The translations under genes were made by a program, and so were the position numbers. From the NCBI GenBank assembly GCA_020161755.1, contig JAIUOS010000022.1:1-64000 (forward strand): a stretch of 64,000 bases of DNA. Direction: 5' to 3'. Below are positions 45,447 to 64,000 of the stretch, piece after piece. Positions within the stretch are counted from its first letter, which is position 1. Every line of letters starts with the position of its first letter. This DNA comes from Actinomycetota bacterium (GTDB taxonomy: Bacteria > Actinomycetota > Actinomycetes > Propionibacteriales > Propionibacteriaceae). The notes beneath the pieces were generated by a model, which was not told the DNA's origin, did not search any database, and saw only the letters and a program-made list of their open reading frames with translations.

Positions 45447-46868
45447 ATGGGACGACGCGTCATGATCCTCGCGGCCGGGGTCGGATCCGGTCACAACCAG
45501 GCAGCCAGCGCGGTCGAAGCCGGTGTCGCGGAGATCGAGCCGGACGCCGAGGTGCGGCGCCTGGACATCCTCGAAACCACCAACGAACTGTTCAACCGGG
45601 TCTACGACGACGCCTACTTCCAGCTGGTGTCGGCGGCCCCCTGGCTGGTCGGCTGGGGCTACGACAACGCCGACCCGCCGTTCAAGCTGAGCGCCTCCCC
45701 GATGCAGTGGATGGAGCAGCTGAACACGATCCAGTTCGTGCGCGAGGTGAAGGACTACAACCCCGACACCGTGATCTGCACGCATTTCCTCCCGGCGCGA
45801 TTGATCTCGCTGTTGATCGCGCGACGCCAATTGACGGCCAGCCTCACCATCGTGACCACCGATTACGACATCCAGGGATTGTGGTTCACCTCGCCGTTGT
45901 CGCATTTCTTCGCGGCGCGCGAGGAGAGCCGTGAGTACCTGACCAGCGTCGGCCTGCCCGCCGACCGGGTGAGCGCGTCCGGCATCCCGGTGCGTTCGGG
46001 GCTGACCGGGCCGATGGACGGCGGGGCCGTCCGGGCGTCGTTCGGGTTGCGGCCGGACGTGCCGGTGGTGCTGATCTCGGCCGGGGCGGCCGGCGGCTCG
46101 TACACGCTCCAGGTCGTCCGGCAGGCGATGCGGATGACCCACCCGTTCCAGGCCGTGATCGTGTGCGGGCGGAACGCCGAACTGAAGGCCGAGGTGGACG
46201 CGCTGGTCGCGGGCCGGGACGAGTTCGTCGTGCTGGGCTTCACCGACCGGATGGCCGAGCTGATGCGGGTCTCGAGCCTGTTCGTGGGCAAGCCGGGCGG
46301 GTTGTCGTCCTCGGAGTGCATGGCCGCCGGGCTGCCGATGGTGATCGTCAACCCGATCCCCGGCCAGGAGGTGCGCAACGCCGACTACCTGCTGGAGGAG
46401 GGCGCGGCCGTCCGCTGCAACTACGCGACCACGGTCGGTTTCAAGATCGACGCCTTGTTGGCCGATCCGGAGCGGCTGGCCCGGATGGCCGCCGCGGCCG
46501 CGCGGGTGGGGCGTCCGGACGCGGGACGCGAGGTCGCGCGCACGTCGCTGGCCCTGGGCACCGAGCCGCTGTGGATCAGCCGGGACGCCCAGAAGGCGAT
46601 CATGCAGGCGGTCGAGGAGGGCGTGGCGGCCGCCGACCAGGTGGGGGAGCGGAAGGTGCGGACGCTGAGCGACGCGTCCACCGGCCGCTCGCTGGCGCTC
46701 GTCACGCAGGAGGAGGCGGAGGCGCTCGGCGTGTCGTGGGCCTCCACGGTGACCCTCTCCCGGATCCAGGTCACCGCCCTGCGCTGGCAGCCGGAGACGT
46801 TCGACCTGGCCGCCGCCGCGCGGTGGCTGCTGCGCGACGCCGAGGAACGCCAGGTCACCGTCCACTGA
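45447..46868 (+). CDS. GT28-family glycosyltransferase (MGDG synthase/UgtP-like)
   Basis: This 473-residue enzyme resembles monogalactosyl- and glucosyl-diacylglycerol synthases, which build membrane glycolipids at the inner leaflet. The N-terminal domain starts MILAAGVGSGHNQAASAVEA (about residues 6-25), the family signature for acceptor binding, and contains VICTHFLPARL and TIVTTDYDIQGLW. The C-terminal donor domain has VLISAGAAGGSYTL, GFTDRMAELMRVSSLFVGKPGGLSSSECMAAGLPMV (GT28 nucleotide-sugar motif) and NPIPGQEVRNADYL. A further ~100 residues at the C-terminus are not recognised. The nucleotide sugar is unknown. ATG 45447 fits the domain start and the -10 spacing. A strong hairpin ends the gene. 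Confidence 0.88.
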   Translation: MGRRVMILAAGVGSGHNQAASAVEAGVAEIEPDAEVRRLDILETTNELFNRVYDDAYFQLVSAAPWLVGWGYDNADPPFKLSASPMQWMEQLNTIQFVREVKDYNPDTVICTHFLPARLISLLIARRQLTASLTIVTTDYDIQGLWFTSPLSHFFAAREESREYLTSVGLPADRVSASGIPVRSGLTGPMDGGAVRASFGLRPDVPVVLISAGAAGGSYTLQVVRQAMRMTHPFQAVIVCGRNAELKAEVDALVAGRDEFVVLGFTDRMAELMRVSSLFVGKPGGLSSSECMAAGLPMVIVNPIPGQEVRNADYLLEEGAAVRCNYATTVGFKIDALLADPERLARMAAAAARVGRPDAGREVARTSLALGTEPLWISRDAQKAIMQAVEEGVAAADQVGERKVRTLSDASTGRSLALVTQEEAEALGVSWASTVTLSRIQVTALRWQPETFDLAAAARWLLRDAEERQVTVH

Positions 46869-46926: not shown

Positions 46927-47397
46927 TCAGGCGGCCGCGACGGTCGAGCTGTAGGTGGCCTTGGCCGCCGTGTCGGGGTCGCTGTGGGCGATCAGCGGGT
47001 GGTCGAAGTCGGTGTCCCAGTCGCCGACGGTGACGCTGACCAGGTCTTTCGCGGTGCTCCAGGCCCGGTTCGCCTTGAAGTGCAGCGGGCTGCCGGTCAT
47101 CACCACCGGCGTGTTGGGCTGGTGGGCCGGCACCAGGTCGAACGGGTTGCTGTCCGCCTCGGTGCCCCACGGGGCGGCTGCGCCCGGTGCCTTGACCTGC
47201 GTCCCGTTGAGCCCAGTGACGGTGAGCGTCAGGTCACGGACGTTCAGCGGCCCGGAGTTCGACACCTGGACGGTGAAGGTGACGTCCTCGTTCACGTTGA
47301 TCGCCGAGCCCGGCGGGTTGACGTCGATGATCTCGATCGTCAGGTAGGTGTGCGGATACGACTCGATCTCGGTCACGAGATCCTGCAGAACGGACAT
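46927..47397 (-). CDS. Hypothetical protein with CARDB/Ig-like beta-sandwich
   Basis: This 156-residue protein has no signal peptide or membrane helix. The central part looks like an Ig/CARDB-type beta-sandwich: INVNEDVTFTVQVSNSGPLNVRDLTLTVTG (about residues 34-63), with the N-S-G-P and DLTLTV pattern of such repeats. FKANRAWSTAKDLVSVTVGDWD follows. Proteins with single domains of this type often bind other proteins; the function here is not known. ATG 47397 has GAGGGGG about 9 nt upstream. It is divergent from the LuxR-type regulator and may be one of its targets. Confidence 0.7.
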   Translation of the reverse strand: MSVLQDLVTEIESYPHTYLTIEIIDVNPPGSAINVNEDVTFTVQVSNSGPLNVRDLTLTVTGLNGTQVKAPGAAAPWGTEADSNPFDLVPAHQPNTPVVMTGSPLHFKANRAWSTAKDLVSVTVGDWDTDFDHPLIAHSDPDTAAKATYSSTVAAA

Positions 47398-47546
47398 GTG
47401 GTGATCCCCCTCGGGTGTTGTCGGCGGGCCCCCTGCCCGCCTGCCATTGACGGTACGAGTGGGACGCCCGGGACGGCGACCGGGGAACCTGCACACCGGA
47501 CCCCACACCGGCGGAAGTGCCCATTGGGGGTCCGGGGCGCGCGCAC

Positions 47547-47552
47547 TAGGGT
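47547..47552 (+). promoter_or_regulatory. Likely -10 box for the leaderless LuxR-type regulator
   Basis: TAGGGT lies 6 nt before GTG 47559. This spacing also decides between two overlapping GTG codons (47557 and 47559). Confidence 0.45.
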
Positions 47553-47558
47553 TCGCGT

Positions 47559-50231
47559 GTGGAGCCGACCACGGTTCGACCTGAGCGACGCCTCGTCGGG
47601 AGGGACGCCGCACGGCGCCGCGTCGACAGCCTGCTGGAGCGGATCCAGGAGCATCCCGAACACCTCGTGATCGTCGGCGAGGCAGGCATCGGCAAGACCA
47701 CGCTGTGGCAGTACGGGCTCGCCGAAGCCCGCGCCCGTGGGTACCGGACGCTGACCAGCCGGCCCGGCGAGGACGACTGGGCTCGGCCGGACATGCTGAT
47801 CCGGGACGTGGCGGCGGACGGGGTCGACCTGACCGACCGGCTGGGGGAGCCGGCGGACCCGAACGCGGTGGCCGCGGCCCTGTTGGCCGCCGTGCGGGAG
47901 CTGGCCGCCACGACGCCGGTGGTGCTGGCCGTCGACGACCTGCCGTGGCTCGACCAGGCGAGCGTGCACCACCTGCGGTTCCTGCTGCGCCGGGTGGCCG
48001 ACCTGCCGGTAGCGCTGCTGGCGACGGCGCGGACGTGGGACCCCGCCGGCGATGAGGACGGCGGCGTCCGGCAGATCCGGGAGGTGCGCGAGCTCGAGCT
48101 GGGCCCGATGCCGGCGTCCGAGCTGCGGGCGGTGCTCACCGAGGAGGTGGACGCGCTGCCGCGCACCGAGCTGGAGCGCCTGCACCGGGAGAGCGGCGGC
48201 AACCCGCTGTTCGCCCTCGAACTGGCCCGGGCGGGCGGAACCGGGCGTCCGACGTCGGCGCAGGCGGCCGTGCAGGCCCGGCTCGCGGACGTCTCGCCCG
48301 GCGTGCGGACGCTGCTCGAACTGGTCGCGGTCGGTGGCCCGGCGAGCCTGTCGCGGCTGGCGGGCGTGCTCGGCCCGGACGCGGAGGCGTCCGCCCGGGA
48401 GGCGGTCCAGCGGCGGCTGGCCGTGGTCGAGGAGGACTTCACCGTCCGTTGCATCCACCCGCTGGTGGCCAGCGCGGTCGTCGCCGCGCTGGACCCGCTC
48501 ACCCGGCGGGACGTGCACCGGCGATGCCTGGAGCTCAGCACCGACCCGCTGGAGCGGGCCGTCCACCTGGCGCTGGGCACGGCGTCCGTCGACGCGGTGG
48601 CTGCGGGTGACCTCCACCGTGCTGCGCAGCTGGCCGCGCGGCGGGGTTCCGCGCACCTGGCCGCCGCGCTCTCGGGGCACGCGGTGCGGCTGAGCCCGGA
48701 CGGCGACCCGGAGCTGGACGCTCGGATCGCGCGGCACCTGATCGCGCTGGCCGCGTGCGGGCAGGCCGGTCCGGCGCGGGCGCTGGCGGAGGAGCGGCTG
48801 CGCGTCCTCGAACCGGGGCCGGCGCGCACCGAGGTGGTGACGCTGCGGATCCTGCTGGACTTCGTCGGGGCCGAGGGCTACCTGCGGGACGCCCTGCGCG
48901 CCGACGGCCTCGACCCGGGCGCGCGGCAGCAGCTGCTGGAGCTGCTCGGCTGGCAGCTGGGCCTGTTCAAGGGGCGGCTGGCGGAGGGCCTGGAGGTGAG
49001 CGCGCAGGCGTTCGAGGCCGCTCAACGGCGGGGTGGTGGGCCGAGGGCCGCCCGCGCGGCCGCGATCCTGGCGACGACGTCGATGATGGCGGGGCACCCG
49101 CGGCGGGAGCTGGCTGTCCAAGCCACGCTCGACGCGGGCGACATCGACGCGGCCGGGGCGGGGCTGCTGGGAATCTGGCCGGCGGTGCTCGAGGCGCGGC
49201 AGTTCGTCTGGGACGGCCGGATCGAGGACGCCCGGCGGGTGATGGAGCAGATGTACCGGCGGGCGGTGACCCTGGGCACCGAGTTCCAGCGGCCGTACCG
49301 GCTGCGGGACGTGGCGGTGGTGGAACTCTGGGCGGGGGAGCCCGACCGCGCCGCGGAGCTGCTGGCGGAGGGGCTGGACGCGGCCCGCGACGCGGGGAAC
49401 CGGCAGGTGGAGGCGTGGCTCGCGCAGCCGTTCGGGCAGCTGTGCGCACTGCGTGGGGACGCGGCCGGCGCGGACTGGGCGGTGCGGGTGCTGGAGGCGT
49501 GGGGAGAGTTGGCCGACGAGCCGCCGCGCCGGGTGATGGCGCGCCACGTGCAGGGGCTGGCGGCGGCGACGCGCGGGGAGTGGGCGGTGGCGTCCGACCA
49601 CTTCGCGGCGGCGCTGGAGCTGTTGGACGCCCTCGGCTACGGCCATCCCGGCGTCCACCGGGTGGTGCCGGACGCGGTGGTCGCGGCCGGGTCGGCGAAC
49701 GACGGGGAGCGGGCCCGCGTCCTGGCCGCGGACCTGGCGGAGGCCGCCGGACGCCTGGACTCGCCGTGGGTGTCGGCCTGGTCGCGGGCGGCGGACGGGA
49801 CGGTCGCGCTGCTGGACGCGGACGCGTCCGCGGGTCCGTTGCTGGAGCAGGCGGTGGACGAGCTGACCGGAATGGGGTGCCGGCTGGACGCCGTCGAACT
49901 CTCCTGGCTGCTGGGGGCGGCGCGGATCCGGGCCGGACAGCGGGTGGTGGCGCGTCGCGACCTGCTCGCTGCCTACGAGCAGGCCGACGCGTGGGGGTTC
50001 GAGGGCTGGGTCGCGCAACTGCGTCCGCTGCTGGACCGGCTCGGGGAGGGCACGGACGTGCTGACCGCCACCGAGGACCGGGTGGTCGAGCTGGTGCGCG
50101 CCGGCCTGCGGAACCGGGAGATCGCCGCCGAGCTGTACGTGACCGCGTCGACGGTGGAGGCGCACCTCACCCGCATCTACCGCAAGCTCGGCGTCCGCAG
50201 CCGGGCGGAGTTGCTGGCGCTGGGCGGCTGA
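47559..50231 (+). CDS. Large ATP-binding LuxR-family regulator (LAL type)
   Basis: This 890-residue STAND-type regulator has an N-terminal ATPase with Walker A GEAGIGKTT (residues 40-48) and Walker B VVLAVDDLPWLD (about 119-130), then ESGGNPLFALELARA. A long helical-repeat (TPR-like) region follows (about 330-800). The C-terminal LuxR helix-turn-helix (about 828-888) reads VVELVRAGLRNREIAAELYVTASTVEAHLTRIYRKLGVRSRAEL. LAL proteins activate genes after binding ATP and an inducer, often for maltose use or secondary metabolism. The target is unknown; the divergent gene and the SDR 53 bp downstream are the nearest candidates. The start at GTG 47559 fits the -10 spacing. Confidence 0.92.
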   Translation: MEPTTVRPERRLVGRDAARRRVDSLLERIQEHPEHLVIVGEAGIGKTTLWQYGLAEARARGYRTLTSRPGEDDWARPDMLIRDVAADGVDLTDRLGEPADPNAVAAALLAAVRELAATTPVVLAVDDLPWLDQASVHHLRFLLRRVADLPVALLATARTWDPAGDEDGGVRQIREVRELELGPMPASELRAVLTEEVDALPRTELERLHRESGGNPLFALELARAGGTGRPTSAQAAVQARLADVSPGVRTLLELVAVGGPASLSRLAGVLGPDAEASAREAVQRRLAVVEEDFTVRCIHPLVASAVVAALDPLTRRDVHRRCLELSTDPLERAVHLALGTASVDAVAAGDLHRAAQLAARRGSAHLAAALSGHAVRLSPDGDPELDARIARHLIALAACGQAGPARALAEERLRVLEPGPARTEVVTLRILLDFVGAEGYLRDALRADGLDPGARQQLLELLGWQLGLFKGRLAEGLEVSAQAFEAAQRRGGGPRAARAAAILATTSMMAGHPRRELAVQATLDAGDIDAAGAGLLGIWPAVLEARQFVWDGRIEDARRVMEQMYRRAVTLGTEFQRPYRLRDVAVVELWAGEPDRAAELLAEGLDAARDAGNRQVEAWLAQPFGQLCALRGDAAGADWAVRVLEAWGELADEPPRRVMARHVQGLAAATRGEWAVASDHFAAALELLDALGYGHPGVHRVVPDAVVAAGSANDGERARVLAADLAEAAGRLDSPWVSAWSRAADGTVALLDADASAGPLLEQAVDELTGMGCRLDAVELSWLLGAARIRAGQRVVARRDLLAAYEQADAWGFEGWVAQLRPLLDRLGEGTDVLTATEDRVVELVRAGLRNREIAAELYVTASTVEAHLTRIYRKLGVRSRAELLALGG

Positions 50232-50284
50232 GGGCCGTTTCACCGCGATACTGCACGTAGGGCGGCTCGGGAAGGAACACCAGC

Positions 50285-51052
50285 ATGGCTTTCGTGAACA
50301 CCAGCGTGGCGGGCGATGTGGCGATCGTGACCGGGGCGGCGAGCGGGATCGGGCAGGCGATCGCGGTGGCGCTGGCCGAGGCCGGCGCGAGGGTCGGCTG
50401 CGCCGATCTGGCGGCGAGCAGCATGGACGAGACCCTCGCCCGGGTCGCCGAGGTGGGCGGTGAGGGCGTCGCGATCGCCTGGGACGTCACCGACCCCGCG
50501 GACGCGACCCGCGCGGTCGCCGAGGTCGAGGCGCGGTTCGGGCCGCTGGCGCTGGCGGTGAACGCGGCGGGCATCGCCAACGCGGCACCGGCGACGGAGC
50601 TGGGCCTGGAGCAGTGGCAGCGCATGTACGACGTGGACGCGACCGGGGTGTTCCTCGCCTGCCAGGCGGAGGGACGGGCGATGCTGGGCCACGGCCGGGG
50701 CTCGATCGTGAACATCGCCTCGATGTCGGGGTCGATCGCGAACCGTGGGCTGACGCAGGTGCACTACAACAGCGCGAAGGCGGCGGTGATCCACCTGACC
50801 AGGTCGCTGGCGGTGGAGTGGATCCGGGACGGGGTGCGGGTCAACTCGCTGAGCCCGGGCTACACCTGGACGCCGATGAACAAGCGCCCGGAGGTGGCCG
50901 ATCAGGTGGTGGAGTTCGCCGCGTCCACGCCGATCGGCCGGCTCGCCGAGCCGGTCGAGATCGCCGGGCCGGCACTGTTCCTGCTCAGCCCGGCGGCGTC
51001 CTTCGTGACCGGTGTCGACCTGCTGGTCGACGGGGGCTTCTGCTGCTGGTGA
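50285..51052 (+). CDS. Short-chain dehydrogenase/reductase (polyol/sugar type)
   Basis: This 255-residue NAD(P)-dependent oxidoreductase has the cofactor loop TGAASGIG (about residues 16-23), NAAG (about 92-95), the catalytic Ser of NIASMSGS and YNSAK (Tyr about 161, Lys about 165). The C-terminal PGYTWTPMNKRPE segment and the DGGFCCW end resemble SDRs that oxidise sugar alcohols such as threitol or sorbitol; the substrate is not proven. The Asp in GCADLAA after the second strand favours NAD over NADP. ATG 50285 has GGAAGGA upstream. It follows the LAL regulator and is convergent with the DUF488 gene (1-bp gap). Confidence 0.9.
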   Translation: MAFVNTSVAGDVAIVTGAASGIGQAIAVALAEAGARVGCADLAASSMDETLARVAEVGGEGVAIAWDVTDPADATRAVAEVEARFGPLALAVNAAGIANAAPATELGLEQWQRMYDVDATGVFLACQAEGRAMLGHGRGSIVNIASMSGSIANRGLTQVHYNSAKAAVIHLTRSLAVEWIRDGVRVNSLSPGYTWTPMNKRPEVADQVVEFAASTPIGRLAEPVEIAGPALFLLSPAASFVTGVDLLVDGGFCCW

Positions 51053-51053
51053 G

Positions 51054-51398
51054 TCAGCCGAGCAGGTCCTGGAGGACGACCGCTTCGTTGTGTTCGACGT
51101 CCCTCGCTGCATAGAGCAGGGTCACGACATCGTGCTGGGCGCATGTGCTGCGCAGGGCGGTCAGCGCGGGGGAGCCGTCCAGTTCGGCGCGGTACCGCTG
51201 GGTGAACTCGGCGAACTTCGCGGGGTCGTGCCCGAACCAGGTGCGCAGGGCGGTGGACGGGGCGACGTCCTTGTCCCATTCGTCGATGCCGGCCTCCGCC
51301 TTCGAGACCCCGCGCGGCCAGAGCCGGTCGACCAGGACGCGGTAGCCGTCCGTCACGTCGCGGGGTTCGTACACGCGCTTGAGCTTGAGGGTGCCCAT
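51054..51398 (-). CDS. DUF488-family protein
   Basis: This 114-residue protein has the DUF488 signature: LKRVYEPRDVTDGYRVLVDRLWPRGVSKAEA (about residues 4-34) with invariant RLWPRG, WDKDVAPSTALRTWFGHDPAKFAEF and TLLYAARDVEHNEAVVL. The short type is widespread, and its function is unknown. ATG 51398 is the family start; a longer frame to 51491 adds atypical sequence. It is convergent with the SDR gene and divergent from the Gfo/Idh/MocA gene. Confidence 0.88.
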   Translation of the reverse strand: MGTLKLKRVYEPRDVTDGYRVLVDRLWPRGVSKAEAGIDEWDKDVAPSTALRTWFGHDPAKFAEFTQRYRAELDGSPALTALRSTCAQHDVVTLLYAARDVEHNEAVVLQDLLG

Positions 51399-51524
51399 GC
51401 GGCTACCGTAGTCCGGGAGGCGCTCGGGGCCCAGACGTGGCGATATTGACGCGTGTAGATGAAAGCCCATCGGCTTCCCATCGAACTCCACCTGTTCGCA
51501 GTCGCGAGGCGCTTGCCGTCCGCG

Positions 51525-51542
51525 AATCTACAGGCGTAGATT
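51525..51542. promoter_or_regulatory. Inverted repeat AATCTAC-AGGC-GTAGATT upstream of the Gfo/Idh/MocA gene
   Basis: The 7-bp arms are perfect around a 4-bp spacer, 43 bp before GTG 51585, and the right arm overlaps a TAGATT -10-like box. A related TGTAGAT lies at about 51454-51460. It is likely an operator for a repressor of this gene. Confidence 0.55.
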
Positions 51543-51584
51543 AGTGGCCCTGCGCACCTCACCCCTCGAAAGGACGGACGACCC

Positions 51585-52805
51585 GTGAAGATCGGCGTCA
51601 TCGGAACGGGCCAATTCGCCCGCAGCTTCATCAGCCTGTGGCAGCTCCACCCCGCGGTGGAGGCGGTGTACGTCACCGACCTGGTCGCCGAGCGCGCCGC
51701 GCAGCACGTGGAACAGTACGGCCTGGCCGGGAGCTTCCCGGACGTCGACGCGATGCTGGCGTCCGACGTCGATTCGGTCGCGATCATGACGCAGCGCTGG
51801 ACGCACGGCGAGCTGGCGCTGAAGGCGCTCGAGGCGGGCAAGAACGTCTACTCGGCGGTGCCGATGGCGATCAGCGCCGAAGAGATCGCCGCGATCGTGG
51901 CGAAGGTCGAGCAGACCGGGCTGATCTACATGATGGGGGAGACCAGCTACTACAACCCGGCCGTGATCTTCGCCCGGCAGAAGATCGCCGCGGGGGAGTT
52001 CGGACGCGTCTTCTACTCCGAGGGCGACTACGTGCACGACATGGACAACGGCTTCTCCGCCGCCTACCGGTTCAGCGGCGGGGACGACTGGAAGTCGACG
52101 GCCAGCTACCCGCCCATGCTGTACCCGACGCACGCCATCGGCGGGGTGCTCGGCGCCCTGCCCACCCACGCCACCTCGGTGTCGTGCATCGGCATCCACG
52201 ACAGCGGCACCGACGGCATCTTCGACCGTGCCATTTCGGCCTGGGACAACGACTTCTCGAACATGTCCGCACTGTTCGAACTCGCGGACGGCGGCGCGAT
52301 GCGCACCAACGAGTTCCGCCGGGTGGGCTACTGGAAGGGCCACGAGTCCCGGTTCCGCTTCTACGGCACCGAGCAGGTCTTCGAGCAGACCGGGGACGGG
52401 GCGAGCCTGAGCGTGAAGACCGAGGGCGAGGACTACGCCAAGGGCGCCACCCTCGACATCAGCGAGCTGTTCTACACCGGCGAGGGAGCCGTCCCCGAGG
52501 GCTTCGGCGACGTCGACCCCGCGCTGATGCAGAGCTTCGCGTCCGGCTCCGCCCAGGTGCAGGACCGCTCCCGGCTGCCGCGCGAGTTCGACGGCGCCCA
52601 CAACGGGCACGAGGGCAGCCACCACTACCTCGCCGACGACTTCGTCCGCGCCGTCACCACTCGCACCCAGCCGCCGGTCAACGCGTGGCGGGCCGCCCGC
52701 TTCACCCTGCCCGGCGTGATCGCCTTCGAGTCGGCACGCCAGGGCGGTGCGAGGCTGCCCGTGCCCGACCACGGCGACGGCCCGGCCGATCCCCGCTGGG
52801 ACTGA
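51585..52805 (+). CDS. Gfo/Idh/MocA-family oxidoreductase
   Basis: This 406-residue NAD(P)-dependent sugar or inositol dehydrogenase-like protein starts with the Rossmann motif MKIGVIGTGQFARS. VAIMTQRWTHGELALKALEAGKNVYSAVPM follows at about residues 65-95. Most family members have E-K-P at the last position, with a catalytic Lys; here it reads Ala-Val-Pro, so the proton relay must differ. The C-terminal beta-sheet domain includes YPPMLYPTHAIGGVLGAL, where His about 185 may act instead. The start GTG 51585 has GAAAGGA upstream. It stands alone with an operator-like palindrome before it. The hairpin-capable stretch at 52836-52863 (CGGCAC…GTGCCG) may end it. Confidence 0.88.
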   Translation: MKIGVIGTGQFARSFISLWQLHPAVEAVYVTDLVAERAAQHVEQYGLAGSFPDVDAMLASDVDSVAIMTQRWTHGELALKALEAGKNVYSAVPMAISAEEIAAIVAKVEQTGLIYMMGETSYYNPAVIFARQKIAAGEFGRVFYSEGDYVHDMDNGFSAAYRFSGGDDWKSTASYPPMLYPTHAIGGVLGALPTHATSVSCIGIHDSGTDGIFDRAISAWDNDFSNMSALFELADGGAMRTNEFRRVGYWKGHESRFRFYGTEQVFEQTGDGASLSVKTEGEDYAKGATLDISELFYTGEGAVPEGFGDVDPALMQSFASGSAQVQDRSRLPREFDGAHNGHEGSHHYLADDFVRAVTTRTQPPVNAWRAARFTLPGVIAFESARQGGARLPVPDHGDGPADPRWD

Positions 52806-52982: not shown

Positions 52983-53026
52983 TGGCATCCCCAACGGGAT
53001 TCGAACCCGCGCTGCCGCCTTGAAAG
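52983..53026 (-). other. 3' half of a tRNA-Glu gene: attachment-site remnant of an integrated element
   Basis: On the minus strand the sequence runs from anticodon loop bases CTTTCAA (anticodon TTC), through the 3' anticodon stem GGCGG and the T arm GCGGG-TTCGAAT-CCCGT, to acceptor TGGGGAT, G and an encoded CCA. The bases that should pair on the 5' side are missing: CTTTCAA is preceded by GGGCCCAA instead of CCGCC. Thus this is only the 3' half, as left when a tyrosine integrase inserts an element into a tRNA gene. The chromosome lies to the left, the element to the right. Confidence 0.8.
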
Positions 53027-54884: not shown

Positions 54885-55814
54885 GTGCATGGCACAGAGA
54901 CCGATCCAGACTGGCTGACGCATCGATCGGCGGATTCCAACCCTGACCGCCCCAAAGCAATGGCTTGGCAGGAGTATCACGACCGCGCGCTCAGTGACTG
55001 GTGTGCGCTGCTCGCTCAGGATCCCGAGGAGGACCGAGTACAGGAGTTCCTTGAGCTACACCCGGCGATGATCCCGGGCGGGAGTGGCGACATCGGTCCC
55101 GGGGGCCATCACAATTCGGAGATGGGCCTCGTGTTTCGTCAACCCCAGCTTCGTGGGATGGATCGGTCCTTTCTGCCGGACTTCATGTGGGTAACCCAGT
55201 CCTCATCGCTGGCGACTCCAATTCTGATCGAGATTGAGAAGCCCTCCCGGCGGTGGTTTCGACGTGATGAGCGACCGACGGCCCACTTCACCGCGGCTCA
55301 CGACCAATTGGCGGAGTGGAAGGCTTGGTTTGCTAACGAGCGGAACGTCGGGACGTTTCGGCAGCGCTACCTGTTCGGCGAGCGGTACGAAAGGCGACGA
55401 TTCCTACCCCAGTACCTGCTTGTGTACGGTCGCAGTCACGAGTTTGAGTTGGGGGGAGGACACCTCAACCCCGACTTCCTCAATCACAAGCGCGACCACA
55501 TGCGGCGCGACGATGAGCACTTCATGACCTTTGACTCGTTGCGGCCACGCCATGACCACAGCAACTCCATCACGGCGACGATGACAGCAACCGGCCCGGC
55601 GCCTTTCGCGTTCTCCCCGGTGTACGGGACGGGACCTCGCACCGGAGAGACCGCGTTGATGTTGGGGTCGCCGCTGGATGCGCTAGGAAGGAGCGTGATG
55701 ATGTCCGACGAGAGGCGCCAGTATCTTGCGGCTCGATGGCGCTTCTGGGCCGAGCGACATGAGGACGACCTACGTCTTCGAAGACGCATCACATACAGAT
55801 CTGGGCTGGAGTAG
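54885..55814 (+). CDS. Shedu-like (DUF4263) nuclease candidate
   Basis: This 309-residue protein shows the layout of Shedu anti-phage proteins: a short helical N-terminus, EDRVQEFLELHPAMIPGG (about residues 49-66), then a probable PD-(D/E)xK nuclease core. In the core, FLPDF gives Asp99, LIEIEKPSRRWF gives Glu116/Glu118 and Lys119, and HDQLAEW gives Gln141. LPQYLLVYGR then forms a strand and FMTFDSLRP a later motif. Shedu uses one protein, SduA, to block phage. The (D/E)xK spacing is slightly unusual (E-I-E-K), so catalytic competence is not certain. GTG 54885 is taken; ATG 54960 is an alternative without a better ribosome site. Composition is clearly less GC-rich than in chromosomal genes, which suggests transfer. 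Confidence 0.65.
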   Translation: MHGTETDPDWLTHRSADSNPDRPKAMAWQEYHDRALSDWCALLAQDPEEDRVQEFLELHPAMIPGGSGDIGPGGHHNSEMGLVFRQPQLRGMDRSFLPDFMWVTQSSSLATPILIEIEKPSRRWFRRDERPTAHFTAAHDQLAEWKAWFANERNVGTFRQRYLFGERYERRRFLPQYLLVYGRSHEFELGGGHLNPDFLNHKRDHMRRDDEHFMTFDSLRPRHDHSNSITATMTATGPAPFAFSPVYGTGPRTGETALMLGSPLDALGRSVMMSDERRQYLAARWRFWAERHEDDLRLRRRITYRSGLE

Positions 55815-55970: not shown

Positions 55971-57140
55971 TCAGTGGTCCGGTAGCGCGAGTTCCTCGCG
56001 GGCAGTGAGTTCGGCCCGCCGGGCGGCGTCGAGGGCGTCGGCGACGGTGTCGAGCCTGTCGGCGAAAAGGTGACCGTACAGGTCGAGAGTCATGGTGGCG
56101 GACTTGTGGCCGAGCATGCGCTGGACGACCTTCACGTCGGCCCCCGCGGCGATGGCCAGCGAGGCTGCGGTGTGGCGGAACTCGTGCGGATGGAAGTGCT
56201 TGGTGAACACCGGGATCTTGATCCCGCCGGGCCCGGTCGTGCTGACGGGCTGGCCGCCGGCGTCGAGCTTGCGGATGCACAGGCCCATCTCCTCGGCTGC
56301 AGGCGTTAACGCGGCGCGCTGGAAGGTCTGAGCGCGGAGCACGCCACCGCGTGGGCCTTGGAAGAGAAGGTCGTTGGCCTGCCGGCCGCGGACGGCGGTC
56401 TCCAGGTCGGCGATGAGGAAGCGGGGGAGTGCGACTTCGCGTCGTTCGTGTCCTTTCGTGGCGCCCCAGACCATGACGCCCCTCACCGGCGAGACCGATT
56501 CGGCGACTACCACCCGGCGGCGTGTCAGGTCGACGCGCGATACGCGAAGGGCAGCCACCTCGCCCCACCGCAGTCCGGTGTAGGCCAGGAAGAGGACCAA
56601 GAGCCTCCAATAGGGCCCGACCAGTGACGCCATGTCTTCGACCTGGGCGTGGGAGAGGAACCGCTTCTCGGTTGCGTGGACGCGGGGCAGGGAGATGTCC
56701 TCGGCGACGTTGCGTGCCAGGCGCCCGTCGCGGACAGCGGTCGCCAGGACTTGGGAGAACACACGGTGAATCTTGCGAACGGAGGCTGGCGCGAGCTTGA
56801 TGCCGGCGATCCACTTCTGGACGTCACCGTGGGTGACCTGAGCGAGCTGAACCTCGCCCCACCGCGGCTTGATGTGCGCCTCGATCGCATCGCCGTATCG
56901 CTCACGCGTCTTGGGTGTGAGGTTGGTCTTGCCTGCGAGCCACTGGTCTGCCCACGGTCCGACCTTGACCCGCGCGCGGGAGGGATCGATGTAGCCGCCG
57001 TTGATCTTGGTGCCTTCGACGTTGACCAGGTGCCCCTCTGCGTCCTTCTTGCGCGTGAACGACTTGCTTCGGCTCTTTCCTTCCGGCGTCCGCCAACGGG
57101 CGTAGTAGCGTCCGTTGGCCATCTTGTCGATGGTGCCCAT
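55971..57140 (-). CDS. int: Tyrosine-type site-specific integrase
   Basis: This 389-residue recombinase has an N-terminal arm-binding domain (about residues 1-60, ANGRYYARWRTPEGKSRSKSF), a core-binding SAM-like domain (about 62-145) and a catalytic domain. The active-site residues are all present: Arg191 (TGLRWGE), Lys229 (ATKGHER), His319 and Arg322 (HPHEFRHTAAS), His345 (LGHKS) and Tyr355 (LDLYGHL). It would integrate and excise the element at the tRNA-Glu site found 2.9 kb away. ATG 57140 is the family-like start. The excisionase-like gene lies 19 bp upstream, the usual xis-int order in actinobacterial integrative elements. Confidence 0.93.
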   Translation of the reverse strand: MGTIDKMANGRYYARWRTPEGKSRSKSFTRKKDAEGHLVNVEGTKINGGYIDPSRARVKVGPWADQWLAGKTNLTPKTRERYGDAIEAHIKPRWGEVQLAQVTHGDVQKWIAGIKLAPASVRKIHRVFSQVLATAVRDGRLARNVAEDISLPRVHATEKRFLSHAQVEDMASLVGPYWRLLVLFLAYTGLRWGEVAALRVSRVDLTRRRVVVAESVSPVRGVMVWGATKGHERREVALPRFLIADLETAVRGRQANDLLFQGPRGGVLRAQTFQRAALTPAAEEMGLCIRKLDAGGQPVSTTGPGGIKIPVFTKHFHPHEFRHTAASLAIAAGADVKVVQRMLGHKSATMTLDLYGHLFADRLDTVADALDAARRAELTAREELALPDH

Positions 57141-57159
57141 GCGTAATCCGGTCTGTGCT

Positions 57160-57444
57160 CTAGCCGGCCACGCCGTACTGCCGGTCGAGCCAGGTGAGCA
57201 CGTCGCTCTTCTTGTAGCGGATGCCGCGCGGGCCGAGGTGGAAGGAGCGTGGTCCGATGCCCTGGTACCTCCACGTGCGCAAGGTGGCGTTGGGCGTGCG
57301 GAGCATGAGCGCGACCTCGGCGGTAGTGAGGAGCTGATCCTCATCAAATGCTGAGGCGTTCGAGGGCGCGCTGGCACCGGGTGGTGCGTCGCGGTGGTCC
57401 GGGCCGGGCCGGTCGTCGAATCCGGGCGTGTAGCTGGCGGTCAT
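57160..57444 (-). CDS. xis: Excisionase-like helix-turn-helix protein
   Basis: This 94-residue DNA-binding protein has a C-terminal winged helix of the MerR/AlpA type: LLTTAEVALMLRTPNATLRTWRYQGIGPRSFHLGPRGIRYKKSDVLTWLDRQY spans about residues 38-90, and its Trp-Arg-x-x-Gly-Ile-Gly-Pro turn is typical of excisionases. Such proteins bend DNA at attachment sites and steer the integrase toward excision. The N-terminus (YTPGFDDRPG) is probably disordered and resembles the start of the ATPase encoded upstream. A very good ribosome site (AGGAGG, 8 nt) fixes ATG 57444. Confidence 0.85.
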   Translation of the reverse strand: MTASYTPGFDDRPGPDHRDAPPGASAPSNASAFDEDQLLTTAEVALMLRTPNATLRTWRYQGIGPRSFHLGPRGIRYKKSDVLTWLDRQYGVAG

Positions 57445-59255: not shown

Positions 59256-59855
59256 ATGACCGAACCCCGCCGGCTCCCCCTGGGCGGCTGCGTGCTCGCG
59301 GTCGTGCTGCTCGCTGGTTGTACGCCCGGAACGGCCTCCCCGCAGACCACGCCGACCCCGACCACCGCGACGACATCGAGCATCGCAGCCCCGTCCGTGT
59401 CGGCCACTCCGACCCCGACTCCGACAGCCACTTGGAACGCCACCCAGTCGGCAGCGATCAAGGTCGTCGAGGACTACTTCGCCGCAGGCGAGCGACTGTT
59501 CGCCGATCCCTCCCGCTACTCCAAGACGGAGGCGAAGAGCGCGCTGGAGCCACTGACCGGGAAGGACATGCTCGCCGGAAACCTGGCGCTGTTTCAGAAG
59601 CTGAAGGCGGAAGGAAAGCGCTACGAGGGCGCCGCTCGGATCAGCTGGATCAGCGCCTCGGGCATCTTCGGCAGCGGACTTGGGGAGTCCGTCAACATCA
59701 CCATCTGCCGTGACCCGCAGGGCCAGGCCCTACTAGACAAGAACGGCGAGGTCCTATCCAAGGTTCCTTCGGCGATCCGAGAGTTCGAGGTCCGCAACCA
59801 GTCCGGATTCCGGATCGTGGGTGAGAAGGAAGGGTTCGGTGCGCCATGTCCATAG
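59256..59855 (+). CDS. Hypothetical lipoprotein
   Basis: This 199-residue exported lipoprotein has the signal GGCVLAVVLLAGC (lipid-modified Cys at residue 22), followed by a Thr/Pro-rich linker (about 25-58) that could span the wall. A globular part of about 140 residues with IKVVEDYFAAGERLFADPSRYSK and a final GFRIVGEKEGFGAPCP follows. The layout resembles small actinobacterial lipoproteins with an NTF2/SnoaL-like fold, though the match is not certain. It is the first gene of a run of six on the plus strand and overlaps the next by 10 bp. Confidence 0.8.
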   Translation: MTEPRRLPLGGCVLAVVLLAGCTPGTASPQTTPTPTTATTSSIAAPSVSATPTPTPTATWNATQSAAIKVVEDYFAAGERLFADPSRYSKTEAKSALEPLTGKDMLAGNLALFQKLKAEGKRYEGAARISWISASGIFGSGLGESVNITICRDPQGQALLDKNGEVLSKVPSAIREFEVRNQSGFRIVGEKEGFGAPCP

Positions 59856-60625
59856 TCGCACGGGCGCTCTCGATTCTGCTGGCCGCAACGACACTGGCCG
59901 GGGTTCTCGCGCCGACCACCGCCCGAGCCGATGTCGTGTGCGACGAGGTGACCCGCATGTGCACCATCGAGGACGGCGGTGGCGGCGGTGGTGGTGGCGG
60001 TGGTGAGCCGCCGAAGGTGCCGTTGTGTTCGTCGTTCCCGCCGGTGGCGGTGCCGGAGGACCCGCCGGAGCCTGACTGGATCTTCATCGAGTGTCGGTTG
60101 TCGTCGACGGAGGAGGACACGATCGGGTTGTGGGTGCCGCCGCGGGAGAGCGCGGAGCAGCTGGCCTGGTTGTTGATTGCCCGGTTGCAGTTGAAGCCGG
60201 TGGAGATCGGCCTGACGCCGCTGGATCCGGATGTGATGACGGCGGTGGGTATCCCGGTGTGGTTGTGGGTGGATAACCCGTCGCGGACGAGTTGGGGGCC
60301 GGCGTCGATCAGCGCCGGTGGGATCTCGCTGACCGCGAAGGTGACCTCGGTCACCTGGACATTGGGGGATGGCACCTCGTTGCGGTGCGGGCGGGGCACC
60401 GAGTGGCGCCCCTCGATGGTGGACCGGAACGGCATGGTCGGTGAGTCCCCGACGTGCGGCCACATCTATCAGCAGCAGGGCCGGTATGCCGTGCGGGCGG
60501 TGGCGCATTGGGCTGCTGAGTGGCAGGGCTATGGCGAGTCGGGGACGATCCGGCTCGATGTGGGTTCCACCCGCCAGCTGCGGGTGGGGGAGATCCAGGT
60601 GATCGTGACCCGGGGCGGCAGGTAG
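59846..60625 (+). CDS. Secreted PKD-domain-like protein
   Basis: This 259-residue protein has a Sec signal (ARALSILLAATTLAGVLAPTTARA, cleavage near residue 28). A CDEVTRMCTIED segment with two Cys and a run of ten Gly follow, then an unknown middle region and a PKD/Ig-like domain (about 165-235). The PKD pattern is SVTWTLGDGTSLRCGRGT, then PTCGHIYQQQGRYAVRAVAHW. Proteins of this shape commonly lie upstream of SAF-domain and CpaF genes on actinobacterial elements; they may be surface or pseudopilus components. It starts inside the lipoprotein gene and ends 10 bp before the SAF gene. Confidence 0.75.
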   Translation: MSIVARALSILLAATTLAGVLAPTTARADVVCDEVTRMCTIEDGGGGGGGGGGEPPKVPLCSSFPPVAVPEDPPEPDWIFIECRLSSTEEDTIGLWVPPRESAEQLAWLLIARLQLKPVEIGLTPLDPDVMTAVGIPVWLWVDNPSRTSWGPASISAGGISLTAKVTSVTWTLGDGTSLRCGRGTEWRPSMVDRNGMVGESPTCGHIYQQQGRYAVRAVAHWAAEWQGYGESGTIRLDVGSTRQLRVGEIQVIVTRGGR

Positions 60626-60635
60626 GAGTGAGCCG

Positions 60636-61292
60636 ATGAAGACCGTTGAGACCTCACCCGGCACCGGCAGCCCGGCTGTGTCGCCGGCGCCGGTGCCGGA
60701 GACGACGAAGTTGCAGCGGCGGCCCAGCGCGGTGGTGCTGGCGCTGGTGTTGGTGTGCCTGGGCGGCGTGACCGGGCTGTGGTTGTGGACGTCGTCCTCG
60801 GCGGCGACCGAGGTGGTCGCGGTCCGGACACCGGTCGAACGCGGTCAGCTGATCGAGCTGGCCGACCTGACAACGGTCCGGGTGACGCTGGATCCTGCGT
60901 TGCGCACGATTCCCGCGTCCGGGATCGATTCGGTGGTGGGTCGGCGTGCGGCCACGGATCTGGCGGTGGGCACTTTGGTCGCGCCGGAGCAGGTGAGTGA
61001 TGCGGTGGTTCCGGCTGCGGGGTTCGCGGTGGTGGCGGTGCCGATCGCGCCGGGTCTGATCCCGACGGAGCCGCTGAAGGCGGGTGACACGGTGCGGCTG
61101 GTGCAGGCACCCGCGCAGGGGGTGGAGGTGACCGGTGCCCCTGCGGAGATCACCGGGACGGTGTTGAACGTCACGGCGGGGGACACCGAGACGGTGGTGG
61201 ATGTGCTGGTGGCCGACAACCGGGCCGGGGAACTGGCTGCGAGGGCGGCGTCGGGTGAGCTGGCGTTGGTGTTGGCGAGCCGGGAGCGGTGA
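60636..61292 (+). CDS. SAF-domain protein, CpaB-like
   Basis: This 218-residue protein has a cytoplasmic Pro-rich N-terminus and one membrane helix (about residues 32-53, SAVVLALVLVCLGGVTGLWLW). A SAF domain follows (about 62-122, VRTPVERGQLIELADLTTVRV, then AATDLAVGTLVAPEQV), as in CpaB/RcpC, which help assemble Flp pili across the wall. The C-terminal beta domain ends with VVDVLVADNRAGELAARAASGELALVL. It has a good ribosome site (TAGGAG). It lies 3 bp before the ParA-like gene and supports a Tad-type machine. Confidence 0.82.
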   Translation: MKTVETSPGTGSPAVSPAPVPETTKLQRRPSAVVLALVLVCLGGVTGLWLWTSSSAATEVVAVRTPVERGQLIELADLTTVRVTLDPALRTIPASGIDSVVGRRAATDLAVGTLVAPEQVSDAVVPAAGFAVVAVPIAPGLIPTEPLKAGDTVRLVQAPAQGVEVTGAPAEITGTVLNVTAGDTETVVDVLVADNRAGELAARAASGELALVLASRER

Positions 61293-61295
61293 GTC

Positions 61296-62132
61296 ATGGC
61301 TTTGATCACGCTGGCATCGGCGGGCGGTGCGCCGGGGGTGACGTCGACGGGGTTGGCGTTGGCGTCGTGCTGGCCGCGCCGGTGCTTGTTGGTGGAGGCT
61401 GACCCGTCCGGCTCGTCGGCGCTGTTGGCGGGGTTCTGGCGGGGCACCCGGGACCACACCGGGGTGGTGGATCTGGTGAAGGCGCACCGGGCCGGGGTGT
61501 TGGCCGATGCGTTGTTGCGGATGGCGATGCAGGTGGACGGCACCCAGGCGACGGTGATTATCGGGTCCCGCTCGCACGAGCAGGCCGCCGGGCTGGCCCG
61601 GTTGTGGGAACCGCTGGCCGGAGTGTTGCGGGATCTCGCCGCCCGCGACCAGGACGTGATCGTGGACGCCGGCCGGCTCGGCCTGGAGGGCTCACCCACA
61701 CCGCTGATCGAGCAGGCGGATGTCACGGTGCTGGTCAGCCGCACCCGGCTCGCCTCTGTTGCGGCGGCCCGGTCGTGGGCGCTCACCCTGGGCGAGGCGG
61801 CGTTGCCGAGCCACGAGGTGCGGCTGTTGCTGGTCGGCGCGGGCCGCCCGTACAGCGCCGGCGAGGTGGGTCGTGCGCTCGGGTTGGCGGTGGTCGGCTC
61901 GATCGGTTGGGACCCGGAGCGGGCTGCGGTGTTCTCCGACGGTGCGCCGCTCCCGCCGCCGCGGGGGGTGCGTCGCCTGTTCGGTGGGAGCGCGGCGGCG
62001 GCGTTTGCCGGGTCGGGCTATCAGCGCAGTGTGCAGGCGGCCGGGGAGGCGTTGCGGGCGTTGGTGGACCGCTCCGAGCAGGAGCGGGCCCGGTGGATCG
62101 CACCACCGCGCAGGGAGGAGACCGGGTCATGA
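61296..62132 (+). CDS. ParA/CpaE-like P-loop protein with degenerate Walker A
   Basis: This 278-residue protein looks like a MinD/ParA-type ATPase of the CpaE group, which places pilus machinery in the cell. The N-terminal loop reads SAGGAPGVTST (about residues 7-17), where active proteins have KGGxGKT; both signature Lys residues are absent. The Walker A' strand is CLLVEADPSGSSAL, and a later DVIVDAGRLG resembles Walker B. No receiver domain precedes the ATPase fold. Such degenerate versions may bind but not hydrolyse nucleotide. The stop overlaps the CpaF start by 4 nt (ATGA), so the two are made together. Confidence 0.75.
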   Translation: MALITLASAGGAPGVTSTGLALASCWPRRCLLVEADPSGSSALLAGFWRGTRDHTGVVDLVKAHRAGVLADALLRMAMQVDGTQATVIIGSRSHEQAAGLARLWEPLAGVLRDLAARDQDVIVDAGRLGLEGSPTPLIEQADVTVLVSRTRLASVAAARSWALTLGEAALPSHEVRLLLVGAGRPYSAGEVGRALGLAVVGSIGWDPERAAVFSDGAPLPPPRGVRRLFGGSAAAAFAGSGYQRSVQAAGEALRALVDRSEQERARWIAPPRREETGS

Positions 62133-63673
62133 GTGAGCTGGAAGAGCGCGAGTTGATGGATCTGCCGATGTTCGGTAGCGACAAGCCGGCCGGCGCCCGT
62201 CGGCCTGGCCGGGTGCGGGGCGGTTTCCGTGTCCCGGGCGAGCCGGAGCCGCCCGTGCCGGCGTCGGTGTCGCGGGTGGTGCCGATCCGGCCCGCGCACG
62301 CCACCGCGCCCCGCCCGGCCGGAGATGTGGATTGGGCGGAGGTGGCCCGGTTCCGTGGTGATGTGGCCAAGCGCCTTCCGGGCCGGGTGGGTGGTGGTGT
62401 GGCTGACCGGGCCGAGGAGGAAGCGGCGGGCTGGTCGGTGATCCGGCAGTTGCTGGAGGAGGACACCGCCACGTCGGTGGCCCGTACGGGCGAGTTGCGT
62501 TCACCGGAGGCGCAGGAGGCGTTGGCGCAGGCGATCTTCGACAGTGTGTTCCGGCTGGGCCGGTTGCAGCCGTTGGTGGACGACCCGCGGGTGGAGAACA
62601 TCCTGGTGTACGGCTGTGACCGGGTGGTGGTGGAGTACGCCGACGGGTCGATGCGGCAGCTGCTGCCGGTGGCCGACAGTGACGCCGACCTGGTCGGGTT
62701 CATCGCGTTCGTCGCCTCCCGAGCCGACAACCCGCGTTCCTTCACCCCAGCCCACCCGTCGCTGAACTTGACGTTGGCGGACGGGTCCCGGTTGGCGGCC
62801 TCGCTGGAGACCGGCCGGGTGTCGTTGGTGATCCGCCGGCACCGGATCCGCAGGGTCACCTTGGCTGATCTGGTCGAGTGGGGGTCGCTGTCGGAGGTGA
62901 TGGCGGACTTCCTGCGGGCGGCGGTGCGGGCCCGGAAGTCGATCGTGGTGTCCGGGGCGCAGGGTGCGGGCAAGACCACCCTGGTGCGGGCGTTGTGTGC
63001 GGAGATCCCGCGGATGGAGATCGTGGGCACGTTCGAGTCGGAGCGGGAGTTGTTCCTGCCGGAGATCGAGGGGCAGCACGCGGTGGTGTTCGACTGGGAG
63101 ATGCGGGCCGGGTCTGGGGAGCGCAGCGAGGACGGCAGCCTGGCTGGGCAGCGGACCACCGGGTCGCAGGTGACCAGCAGCTTCCGGTTCCGCGCCGACC
63201 GGCAGATCGTCGGTGAGGTCCTGGGCGCTGAGGCGATGGACATGATCAAGGTGATGGAGTCGGGCACCGGCTCGATCTCAACCACCCATGCGGCGAACGC
63301 CCGGCTGGCGGTGCACAAGCTGATCACCTGCGCGATGGAAGCCGGGCCGCACGTCAGCCACGACCTGGTCTCCGCGAAGCTGGCCGCCACCCTCGACTTG
63401 GTGGTGCAGATGCATTCGGAGATCACCCCGATCGACGACTTCGGCCAGGTCGCCCAGAAACGCCGCTACGTCTCCGAGATCGTCGAGGTCACTCCGGGGG
63501 AGTGGCCGCGCGGCATCTCGTTCACCACCGTGTTCCGCCGTGTGCCCGGCCAGTGTGGGGTGGCCGACACCCGGCCCGACAGCATCTGGGACGACCTGGT
63601 CGCCGCCGGCCTGGACGATGTCGCCTTCGAACGCGAAGCCGCCGAGCACCACCCGCCGGGAGGGCTGCGATGA
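62129..63673 (+). CDS. CpaF/TadA-family secretion ATPase
   Basis: This 514-residue ATPase of the type II/IV secretion superfamily would power a Tad-type (Flp) pilus or a related conjugation apparatus. An N-terminal Pro-rich region precedes the family N-domain (about residues 130-230, FRLGRLQPLVDDPRVENILVYG). The P-loop is SGAQGAGKTTL (about 274-284), the Asp box is in VGTFESERELFLPEI, the Walker B-like segment is RQIVGEVLGAEAMDMIKVM and the His box is ISTTHAANARLAVHKL. All nucleotide-binding residues are present. The stop overlaps the TadB start by 4 nt. CpaF lookalikes occur both in Tad loci and in actinobacterial conjugative elements. Confidence 0.9.
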   Translation: MSELEERELMDLPMFGSDKPAGARRPGRVRGGFRVPGEPEPPVPASVSRVVPIRPAHATAPRPAGDVDWAEVARFRGDVAKRLPGRVGGGVADRAEEEAAGWSVIRQLLEEDTATSVARTGELRSPEAQEALAQAIFDSVFRLGRLQPLVDDPRVENILVYGCDRVVVEYADGSMRQLLPVADSDADLVGFIAFVASRADNPRSFTPAHPSLNLTLADGSRLAASLETGRVSLVIRRHRIRRVTLADLVEWGSLSEVMADFLRAAVRARKSIVVSGAQGAGKTTLVRALCAEIPRMEIVGTFESERELFLPEIEGQHAVVFDWEMRAGSGERSEDGSLAGQRTTGSQVTSSFRFRADRQIVGEVLGAEAMDMIKVMESGTGSISTTHAANARLAVHKLITCAMEAGPHVSHDLVSAKLAATLDLVVQMHSEITPIDDFGQVAQKRRYVSEIVEVTPGEWPRGISFTTVFRRVPGQCGVADTRPDSIWDDLVAAGLDDVAFEREAAEHHPPGGLR

Positions 63674-64000
63674 CCGGCGCTCTGCTGTCCATGCTGGCCG
63701 GGGCGATGATCACCGCCGGCGTGATCCTCGGCATCTATGGGATGACACCCGGCCCGGCCCGTGAGCGGCGCCCGCGTCCGCGTCCGGCATGGCTGGTGCG
63801 GGCGGCCCGGATGCCGACCTGGCAGCGCTGGGCGCTGGTGGCCGCCACGGTGGCGGGGTTGGTGGCGAGCGTGTTCGGGGTGCCGCTGGTGGTGGCGGTG
63901 TTGTTGCCGTTGGCGGTGCTCGGCCTGCCCGTGCTGCTGGTGACCTCGGATGGGGGCCGGCGGATCGCCCGGCTGGACGCGATCAGTGAGTGGACCCGGA
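63670..64000 (+). CDS. TadB-like type II secretion F-family membrane protein (3' truncated)
   Basis: Only the first 110 residues lie in the window; the frame is open at base 64,000. It has two or three membrane segments (about residues 3-24; 53-72 and 75-92), a basic loop between them (RERRPRPRPAWLVRAARMP) and then RRIARLDAISEWTR. That last segment matches the start of the cytoplasmic F domain in TadB proteins. TadB and TadC form the inner-membrane platform on which the CpaF ATPase acts. Start ATG 63670 overlaps the CpaF stop (ATGA). TadC, pilins and TadE-like genes would be expected beyond the window. Confidence 0.82.
   Translation, partial: MTGALLSMLAGAMITAGVILGIYGMTPGPARERRPRPRPAWLVRAARMPTWQRWALVAATVAGLVASVFGVPLVVAVLLPLAVLGLPVLLVTSDGGRRIARLDAISEWTR

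Follow-up and report, generated by a model that had tools for sequence, protein, structure and literature searches.

A Tad (type IVc) pilus operon, which probably serves the mating contact of an integrative and conjugative element (ICE) inserted in a tRNA-Glu gene, begins at position 59256 of contig JAIUOS010000022.1 (hereafter C22) in the genome of an Actinomycetota bacterium of the Propionibacteriaceae (GCA_020161755.1). The window analysed here is the stretch of DNA from position 1 to 64,000 of this contig, which has a total length of 75,459 bp. The six plus-strand genes recognized from 59256 onwards in the first-pass annotation of the window, described as overlapping or separated by tiny gaps, are all present, with neighbouring genes overlapping or spaced by at most 10 bp. 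They are the first members of a twelve-gene operon which extends past the window edge to C22 position 69928.

A Tad operon with two additional secreted proteins

The first two plus-strand genes of the operon code for a lipoprotein with a predicted NTF2/VirB8-like fold (59256-59855; no Pfam match) and a secreted PKD-domain protein (59846-60625; Pfam PKD e-value: 6e-5, just under the cut-off), both of which appear to be partners of this Tad type. These are followed on the same strand by genes encoding a SAF-domain protein resembling CpaB/RcpC (60636-61292; SAF: 4.5e-9), a ParA-like P-loop protein of the TadZ/CpaE kind, which has no Pfam match and was assigned on the basis of its position and family conservation (61296-62132), the CpaF/TadA ATPase (62129-63673; T2SSE: 1.9e-18; TIGR03819 TadA: 9.8e-35, below its cut-off) and TadB (63670-64533, of which the window holds 63670-64000; T2SSF: 1.9e-8). 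Further plus-strand genes beyond the window encode TadC (C22 64530-65432; T2SSF: 4.4e-5, just under the cut-off), a 66 amino acid Flp-like prepilin (65451-65651; no Pfam match), three TadE/G-like proteins (65747-66953; TadE: 2.6e-7 and 1.1e-6, over the cut-off, and 9.2e-4, below it) and a 990 amino acid LysM protein (66956-69928). An XRE-type regulator and then a sigma-like factor are encoded 3′ of the latter gene. In the Flp-like protein, a glutamate would occupy position +5 if cleavage occurs after the alanine and +6 if it occurs after the glycine; the Flp leader motif is clear in some relatives, such as that on contig C2 of the same genome (GATTVE), while the motif pattern failed in others.

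As the operon continues with TadC, the Flp-like prepilin, the three TadE/G-like proteins and the LysM protein, its products can be viewed as parts of a monoderm Tad pilus. The CpaF/TadA ATPase is accompanied by the two platform proteins TadB and TadC, and TadE/F/G minor pilins are encoded downstream, while a prepilin peptidase (Peptidase_A24: 6.9e-10) is encoded not on C22 itself but beside a MobF relaxase gene on contig C9. The predicted gene content thus provides good support for a complete monoderm-type Tad (type IVc) pilus set. The outer-membrane secretin RcpA, which belongs to Tad systems of two-membrane bacteria, would not be expected here, as the host has a single membrane.

The lipoprotein and PKD genes had been singled out as non-standard for a Tad locus, which agrees with their absence from all 20 chromosomal-type Tad loci examined; neither gene is found in the separate chromosomal-type locus of the window genome, on contig C27. 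By contrast with the chromosomal type, a six-frame scan of 27 Tad loci of the type described here (element-type) revealed the PKD gene in 26 and the lipoprotein gene in 25, so that the gene array is not a chance one, and the two genes can serve as markers which distinguish element-type Tad loci from the chromosomal type examined. A neighbourhood search of the genome collection with the PKD family, an approach envisaged in the first-pass annotation, retained 80 of 354 loci, with the lipoprotein gene within 10 kb of the PKD gene in 75 and cpaF in 61 of these. In 21 of the 80 loci, mostly from Nocardioides, the MobF gene is divergent and stands head to head with the lipoprotein gene, while in N. 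daeguensis the Tad operon with its lipoprotein and PKD genes leads on into TrbL, SCO6880 and VirB4. Confinement of the two genes to mobile elements was ruled out, since the six-frame scan located divergent forms among the housekeeping genes of two genomes (G099 and G108).

The lipobox cysteine at position 22 is invariant across 51 lipoprotein sequences. The structure model of the lipoprotein (pLDDT: 85; core: >90) has an NTF2-like fold, for which the top match is the intermembrane domain of ARC6 (Z: 13.6; 126 residues; 2.5 Å), followed by TraH of pIP501 (Z: 11.4; 120 residues; 3.0 Å), a TraM fragment (Z: 10.8; 124 residues; 3.2 Å), PrgL of pCF10 (Z: 10.3; 119 residues; 3.5 Å) and VirB8 (Z: 10.2; 120 residues; 3.4 Å). 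Many unrelated NTF2-like proteins score alike, and the modelled resemblance to conjugation proteins is therefore taken as a hint only. The predicted structure of the second protein, whose family was aligned over 48 sequences, can be superimposed on a collagenase PKD domain (Z: 10.8; 85 residues; 1.6 Å), which confirms at the level of the model that the 59846-60625 product has a true PKD fold.

The tRNA-Glu insertion and the conjugation genes linked to it

The first-pass annotation had placed the locus on a mobile element, and the insertion site bears this out. The left attachment site, attL (52983-53026, minus strand), is a 44 bp fragment corresponding to the 3′ half of tRNA-Glu(ttc), found by pattern search at two places in the genome. 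The second copy (C9 73908-73951; blastn identity: 97.7%) lies inside a complete tRNA-Glu gene, and a full tRNA-Glu was detected by ARAGORN only on C9; the ARAGORN scan of two stretches (L009 and L010) returned zero tRNAs, and the attL fragment was spotted by eye. A tyrosine integrase is encoded on the minus strand at 55971-57140, where the start follows the gene call (Phage_integrase: 2.9e-21, on the longer open reading frame 55971-57377). Adjacent to it, the open reading frame at 57160-57444 (minus strand) translates into a small helix-turn-helix protein, a putative excisionase by position and motif.

Relatives without the insert carry an intact tRNA-Glu between the homologue of the C9 gene at 72354-73739 and the genes of the left side of the window, namely 45462-46868 and those for tRNA-Asp and tRNA-Phe. 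In one relative (G137), a gap of 70 bp separates the end of tRNA-Glu from the gene homologous to window gene 45462-46868, while in seven relatives the intact tRNA-Glu shares a stretch with the homologue of the C9 gene. The left flanking gene at 51585-52805 proved unusable as an empty-site marker, being present in just two of the 30 genomes of the genus. The att repeats, the integrase and the empty site in relatives provide good support for a mobile element inserted in tRNA-Glu that carries the Tad locus. As the intact tRNA-Glu joins both flanks in relatives, a single insert presumably starts in C22 after 53,026 and has its other end in C9 past 73,951. For this insert, summing gives a probable size of at least about 86 kb when contig C50, discussed below, is counted in.

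Two further observations were made near the insertion site. A Shedu-type defence gene, sduA (54885-55814; SduA_C: 4e-17), is located between attL and the integrase gene and is likely cargo of the element. Approximately 6 kb (46955-52805), from the conserved gene neighbouring tRNA-Asp/Phe to the tRNA-Glu fragment, is absent from this position in G137; an earlier element may have inserted there.

Positions 74159-74239 of C22 overlap positions 1-82 of C50 (82 bp; 98.8% identity). When C22 is continued into C50, a single ABC protein of 660 amino acids can be read without a break, which the last 1.2 kb of C22 interrupts. As the join restores the ABC gene and the tail breaks it, the sequence likely continues in C50, and the C22 tail is likely a misjoin. 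This tail (C22 74240-75459, beyond the window) contains a cation-efflux-like gene and splits the ABC-protein gene, the other half of which opens C50. C50 encodes an SCO6880-like protein, VirB4, a lytic transglycosylase-like protein and VirD4, and is 84.6% identical to contig C41 of the same genome, on the copies of which the family scores are 1.9e-7 for TrbL/VirB6, 2.1e-126 for SCO6880, 6e-14 for a VirB4-like protein, 1.5e-19 for SLT and 1.7e-18 for VirD4. Beside the other tRNA-Glu end, C9 encodes a 1825 amino acid MobF relaxase that includes primase-like and Toprim regions (TrwC: 3.3e-84), and the A24 prepilin peptidase gene directly adjoins it. The relaxase, VirB4 and VirD4 expected of an ICE with a type IV secretion system (T4SS) are all found, VirB4 and VirD4 through the contig overlap and the relaxase through synteny alone.

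Sister elements are present in the same genome. C41 carries a second Tad operon, 86.7% identical at the nucleotide level to that of C22 and with T4SS genes following on the same contig, while C48 contains a second pair of MobF and A24 genes. A third element, on the 240 kb contig C2, combines Tad, T4SS, VirD4, MobF and integrase genes on a single contig. The Tad identity between elements is bimodal, at 75-87% or about 50%. A clean swap of Tad modules between elements was considered and dropped; VirD4 and MobF identity falls along with that of Tad, and the elements are therefore described as mosaic, with no single swap claimed. The four element-type Tad modules of this genome (C22, C41, C2 and C26), the assembly of which has 3.66% contamination, may represent several related elements or mixed strains.

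Linkage of the Tad module in family genomes and plasmids

The positions of CpaF, VirB4 and MobF were compared in 197 genomes of the family, with element-type CpaF defined by E ≤ 1e-80. Relaxase matches below about E 1e-130 (with one exception) and two second-fragment CpaF matches were excluded, and some VirB4 fragments were merged. The counts are lower bounds among the matches listed, many contigs being short, and contig ends limit the 96 element-type loci. VirB4 is located within 60 kb of at least 30 of these 96 loci, and in 30/30 it is downstream and on the same strand. MobF occurs within 60 kb of at least 24/96, on the opposite strand in 23 and positioned downstream in 20 and upstream in four; both VirB4 and MobF are found within this distance in at least 23/96. 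By comparison, neither VirB4 (0/52) nor MobF (0/52) was found within 60 kb of the 52 chromosomal-type CpaF loci among the matches listed. VirB4 matches of approximately 30% identity were left out of the main count; with these included, the figures at 60 kb among the matches listed become at least 31/96 for element-type and 0/52 for chromosomal-type loci.

Of 20 loci sampled, 10 have an A24 prepilin peptidase gene at a distance of 0-3.5 kb from MobF, and in eight of these the two are immediately adjacent. In 18 of the 19 genomes with the MobF-Tad arrangement that were searched, a VirB4 relative is situated 20-68 kb from the PKD gene, on the same strand by coordinates, where contig identity was matched for one complete chromosome (L154) only. 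The notion of MobF-Tad loci lacking any T4SS was rejected on account of these VirB4 relatives.

The same module is found on plasmids. CpaF, VirB4, MobF and the LysM protein have top plasmid matches in shared records, namely Nocardioides pCHL, two Pimelobacter plasmids and Ornithinimicrobium pINDO-MA30-4, and relatives of the PKD gene occur on five Cutibacterium plasmid records. The circular 110 kb plasmid pCHL (NZ_CP124682.1) carries Tad, T4SS, MobF and resistance genes. Like the element described here, the circular actinobacterial plasmids pCHL, pINDO-MA30-4 and pXCEL01 have the Tad module on one replicon, which in pCHL and pINDO-MA30-4 also harbors SCO6880, VirB4-like and MobF genes. Unlike it, all three are autonomous rather than integrated and are labelled non-mobilizable by PLSDB/MOB-suite. 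The plasmids pXCEL01, pCPRO01 and the linear pAL1 combine the Tad operon with an A24 gene, and pAL1 is termed conjugative in PMC3534580.

The resistance genes of pCHL comprise sul1, qacEdelta1, aadA2, cmx and an erm gene, and this plasmid is typed as non-mobilizable despite its MobF and T4SS genes. In pINDO-MA30-4 (L211; 3301-8964 and 25742-27221), MobF and SCO6880 are split over several reading frames, which points to either decay or sequencing errors.

Candidate role of the Tad pilus in mating contact

The first-pass annotation had offered an adhesive pilus and a hybrid conjugation apparatus as alternatives, to be told apart by annotating the continuation. Markers of both are present, prepilins on C22 and the A24 peptidase on C9 on the one hand, and MobF, VirB4 and VirD4 on the other. 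The either/or choice therefore does not stand and, as the element has its own T4SS, the Tad parts need not move DNA. We consider it probable that the locus is the pilus module of a tRNA-Glu ICE whose Tad pilus serves mating contact, a role which is the best inference from the gene content and arrangement described above. The A24 peptidase would trim the Flp and TadE/G-like prepilins, and CpaF, together with TadB and TadC, would polymerise a thin pilus which holds or pulls the recipient against the donor, while the MobF-bound single strand would be passed by the T4SS formed by VirD4 and VirB4/VirB6. The lipoprotein, presumably anchored to the outside of the membrane, and the PKD protein may be outer parts specific to the element-type pilus, with a putative function as wall-side anchor or in contact, or in linking the pilus to the T4SS.

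This scheme would follow the logic of R64, with a Tad pilus taking the place of the thin pilus and in a host with a single membrane. IncI plasmids such as R64 use a thin type IV pilus for mating contact and a T4SS for DNA, and PAPI-1 of Pseudomonas aeruginosa represents an obligatory version of this division of labour, according to the accessible portion of a review (PMC12857230), in which the word "Tad" appears nowhere. As in R64, one element encodes a DNA-transfer T4SS plus a separate type IV pilus; R64, however, as far as the same portion describes it, has a T2SS-like (type II secretion) pilus machinery, a Dot/Icm-like T4SS, a MOBP relaxase (NikB) and a two-membrane host, whereas here a Tad pilus, an SCO6880-type T4SS and a single-membrane host are combined with a relaxase which the TrwC match places in MOBF rather than MOBP. 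PAPI-1 is likewise integrated and encodes a type IV pilus of its own along with VirB4 and VirD4, but in that account its pilus is essential and its clear T4SS parts are VirB4 and VirD4 only, while SCO6880 and TrbL/VirB6 are present here too (as scored on the C41 copy).

Closer relatives are found among the Actinobacteria. The linear plasmids of Cutibacterium acnes carry a tad locus, for which the pilin was identified by mass spectrometry and cell appendages were seen, as stated in the available text (PMC5696575). They resemble the element in combining, on one actinobacterial element, a tad locus with conjugation-type genes (VirB4- and TcpC-like in the plasmids), and differ in that the plasmid is linear and has an FtsK-like translocase; the word "relaxase" is absent from that text. 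A 2011 survey lists a type IV coupling protein, VirB4 and MOBF as transfer parts of T4SS-type ICEs of Actinobacteria, the same three parts as here, while a Tad module goes unnamed in the available text of the survey (PMC3218068). Among the records and excerpts covered by a full-text literature search, with most subscription journals outside its scope, none describes an actinobacterial ICE of the T4SS type that contains a Tad module. Pilus-assisted conjugation is thus already known, with R64, PAPI-1 and the C. acnes plasmid as precedents, and the new aspects would be the Tad pilus in single-membrane hosts and the two added secreted parts.

Several observations weigh against a role in mating. 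For 66 of the 96 CpaF loci of the element type, the matches listed include no VirB4 at a distance of up to 60 kb, although many of these loci are on short contigs, and no A24 gene was found near MobF in the other 10 of the 20 sampled loci or on the C2 contig. The connection of C22/C50 to C9 is based on synteny instead of assembled sequence, and the NTF2-like fold is widespread and indicates no function for the lipoprotein. In G099 and G108, Tad loci with lipoprotein and PKD genes are situated in ordinary chromosomal surroundings with no T4SS within 20 kb, and an element-type pilus can therefore exist without conjugation.

Such chromosomal relatives speak for an alternative in which the operon is adhesive or biofilm cargo that rides on the ICE and aids the host in sticking to surfaces but plays no role in transfer. 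Adhesion is a known function of Tad pili, and the authors of the C. acnes plasmid study found the functional link between tad and conjugation unclear (both in the available text of PMC5696575). Cargo would, however, be expected to vary in place, and the constant arrangement and orientation with respect to VirB4 in all 30 linked loci, the prepilin peptidase beside MobF in 10 of the 20 loci sampled for it and the MobF gene divergent from the lipoprotein gene in 21/80 count against it, so that we regard it as unlikely. Less plausible still is a competence-like pilus that takes up DNA, as in Micrococcus luteus, where tad genes are required for transformation (PMC4322843, in the text available). 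Although pCHL carries a dprA gene, the linked genes are those of DNA export, and neither ComEA nor ComEC was noticed in the gene calls of the element, no search having been aimed at them. A hybrid machine, in which Tad parts carry the DNA themselves and replace the T4SS, could account for the MobF genes directly divergent from the Tad operon, but is highly improbable given the T4SS of the element and the VirB4 relatives in 18/19 MobF-Tad genomes. An ordinary, non-mobile chromosomal locus, as which the core Tad parts of the usual actinobacterial kind might be taken, is scarcely tenable in view of the att repeats, the empty site in relatives, the closely related copy on C41 and the chromosomal-type locus elsewhere, on C27; the syntenic standard Tad locus that, according to the first-pass annotation, would argue against mobility is not what the continuation holds.

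A stronger form of the mating-contact proposal is doubtful: in a widespread class of ICEs and plasmids of Actinobacteria, the transfer apparatus might include the Tad pilus as an obligatory component and so correspond to PAPI-1 in a single-membrane setting. The lipoprotein and PKD protein would then couple pilus retraction to the channel of the T4SS or act in recipient recognition.

With a mating role of the pilus, plasmids typed as non-mobilizable would be flagged as possibly transmissible, among them pCHL, which carries resistance genes. To our knowledge, the way in which donor and recipient make contact for single-strand conjugation in single-membrane bacteria is poorly known. A Tad module that keeps a constant place next to VirB4 and MobF across many elements of Actinobacteria would provide a concrete candidate for this mating contact, and one that can be deleted.

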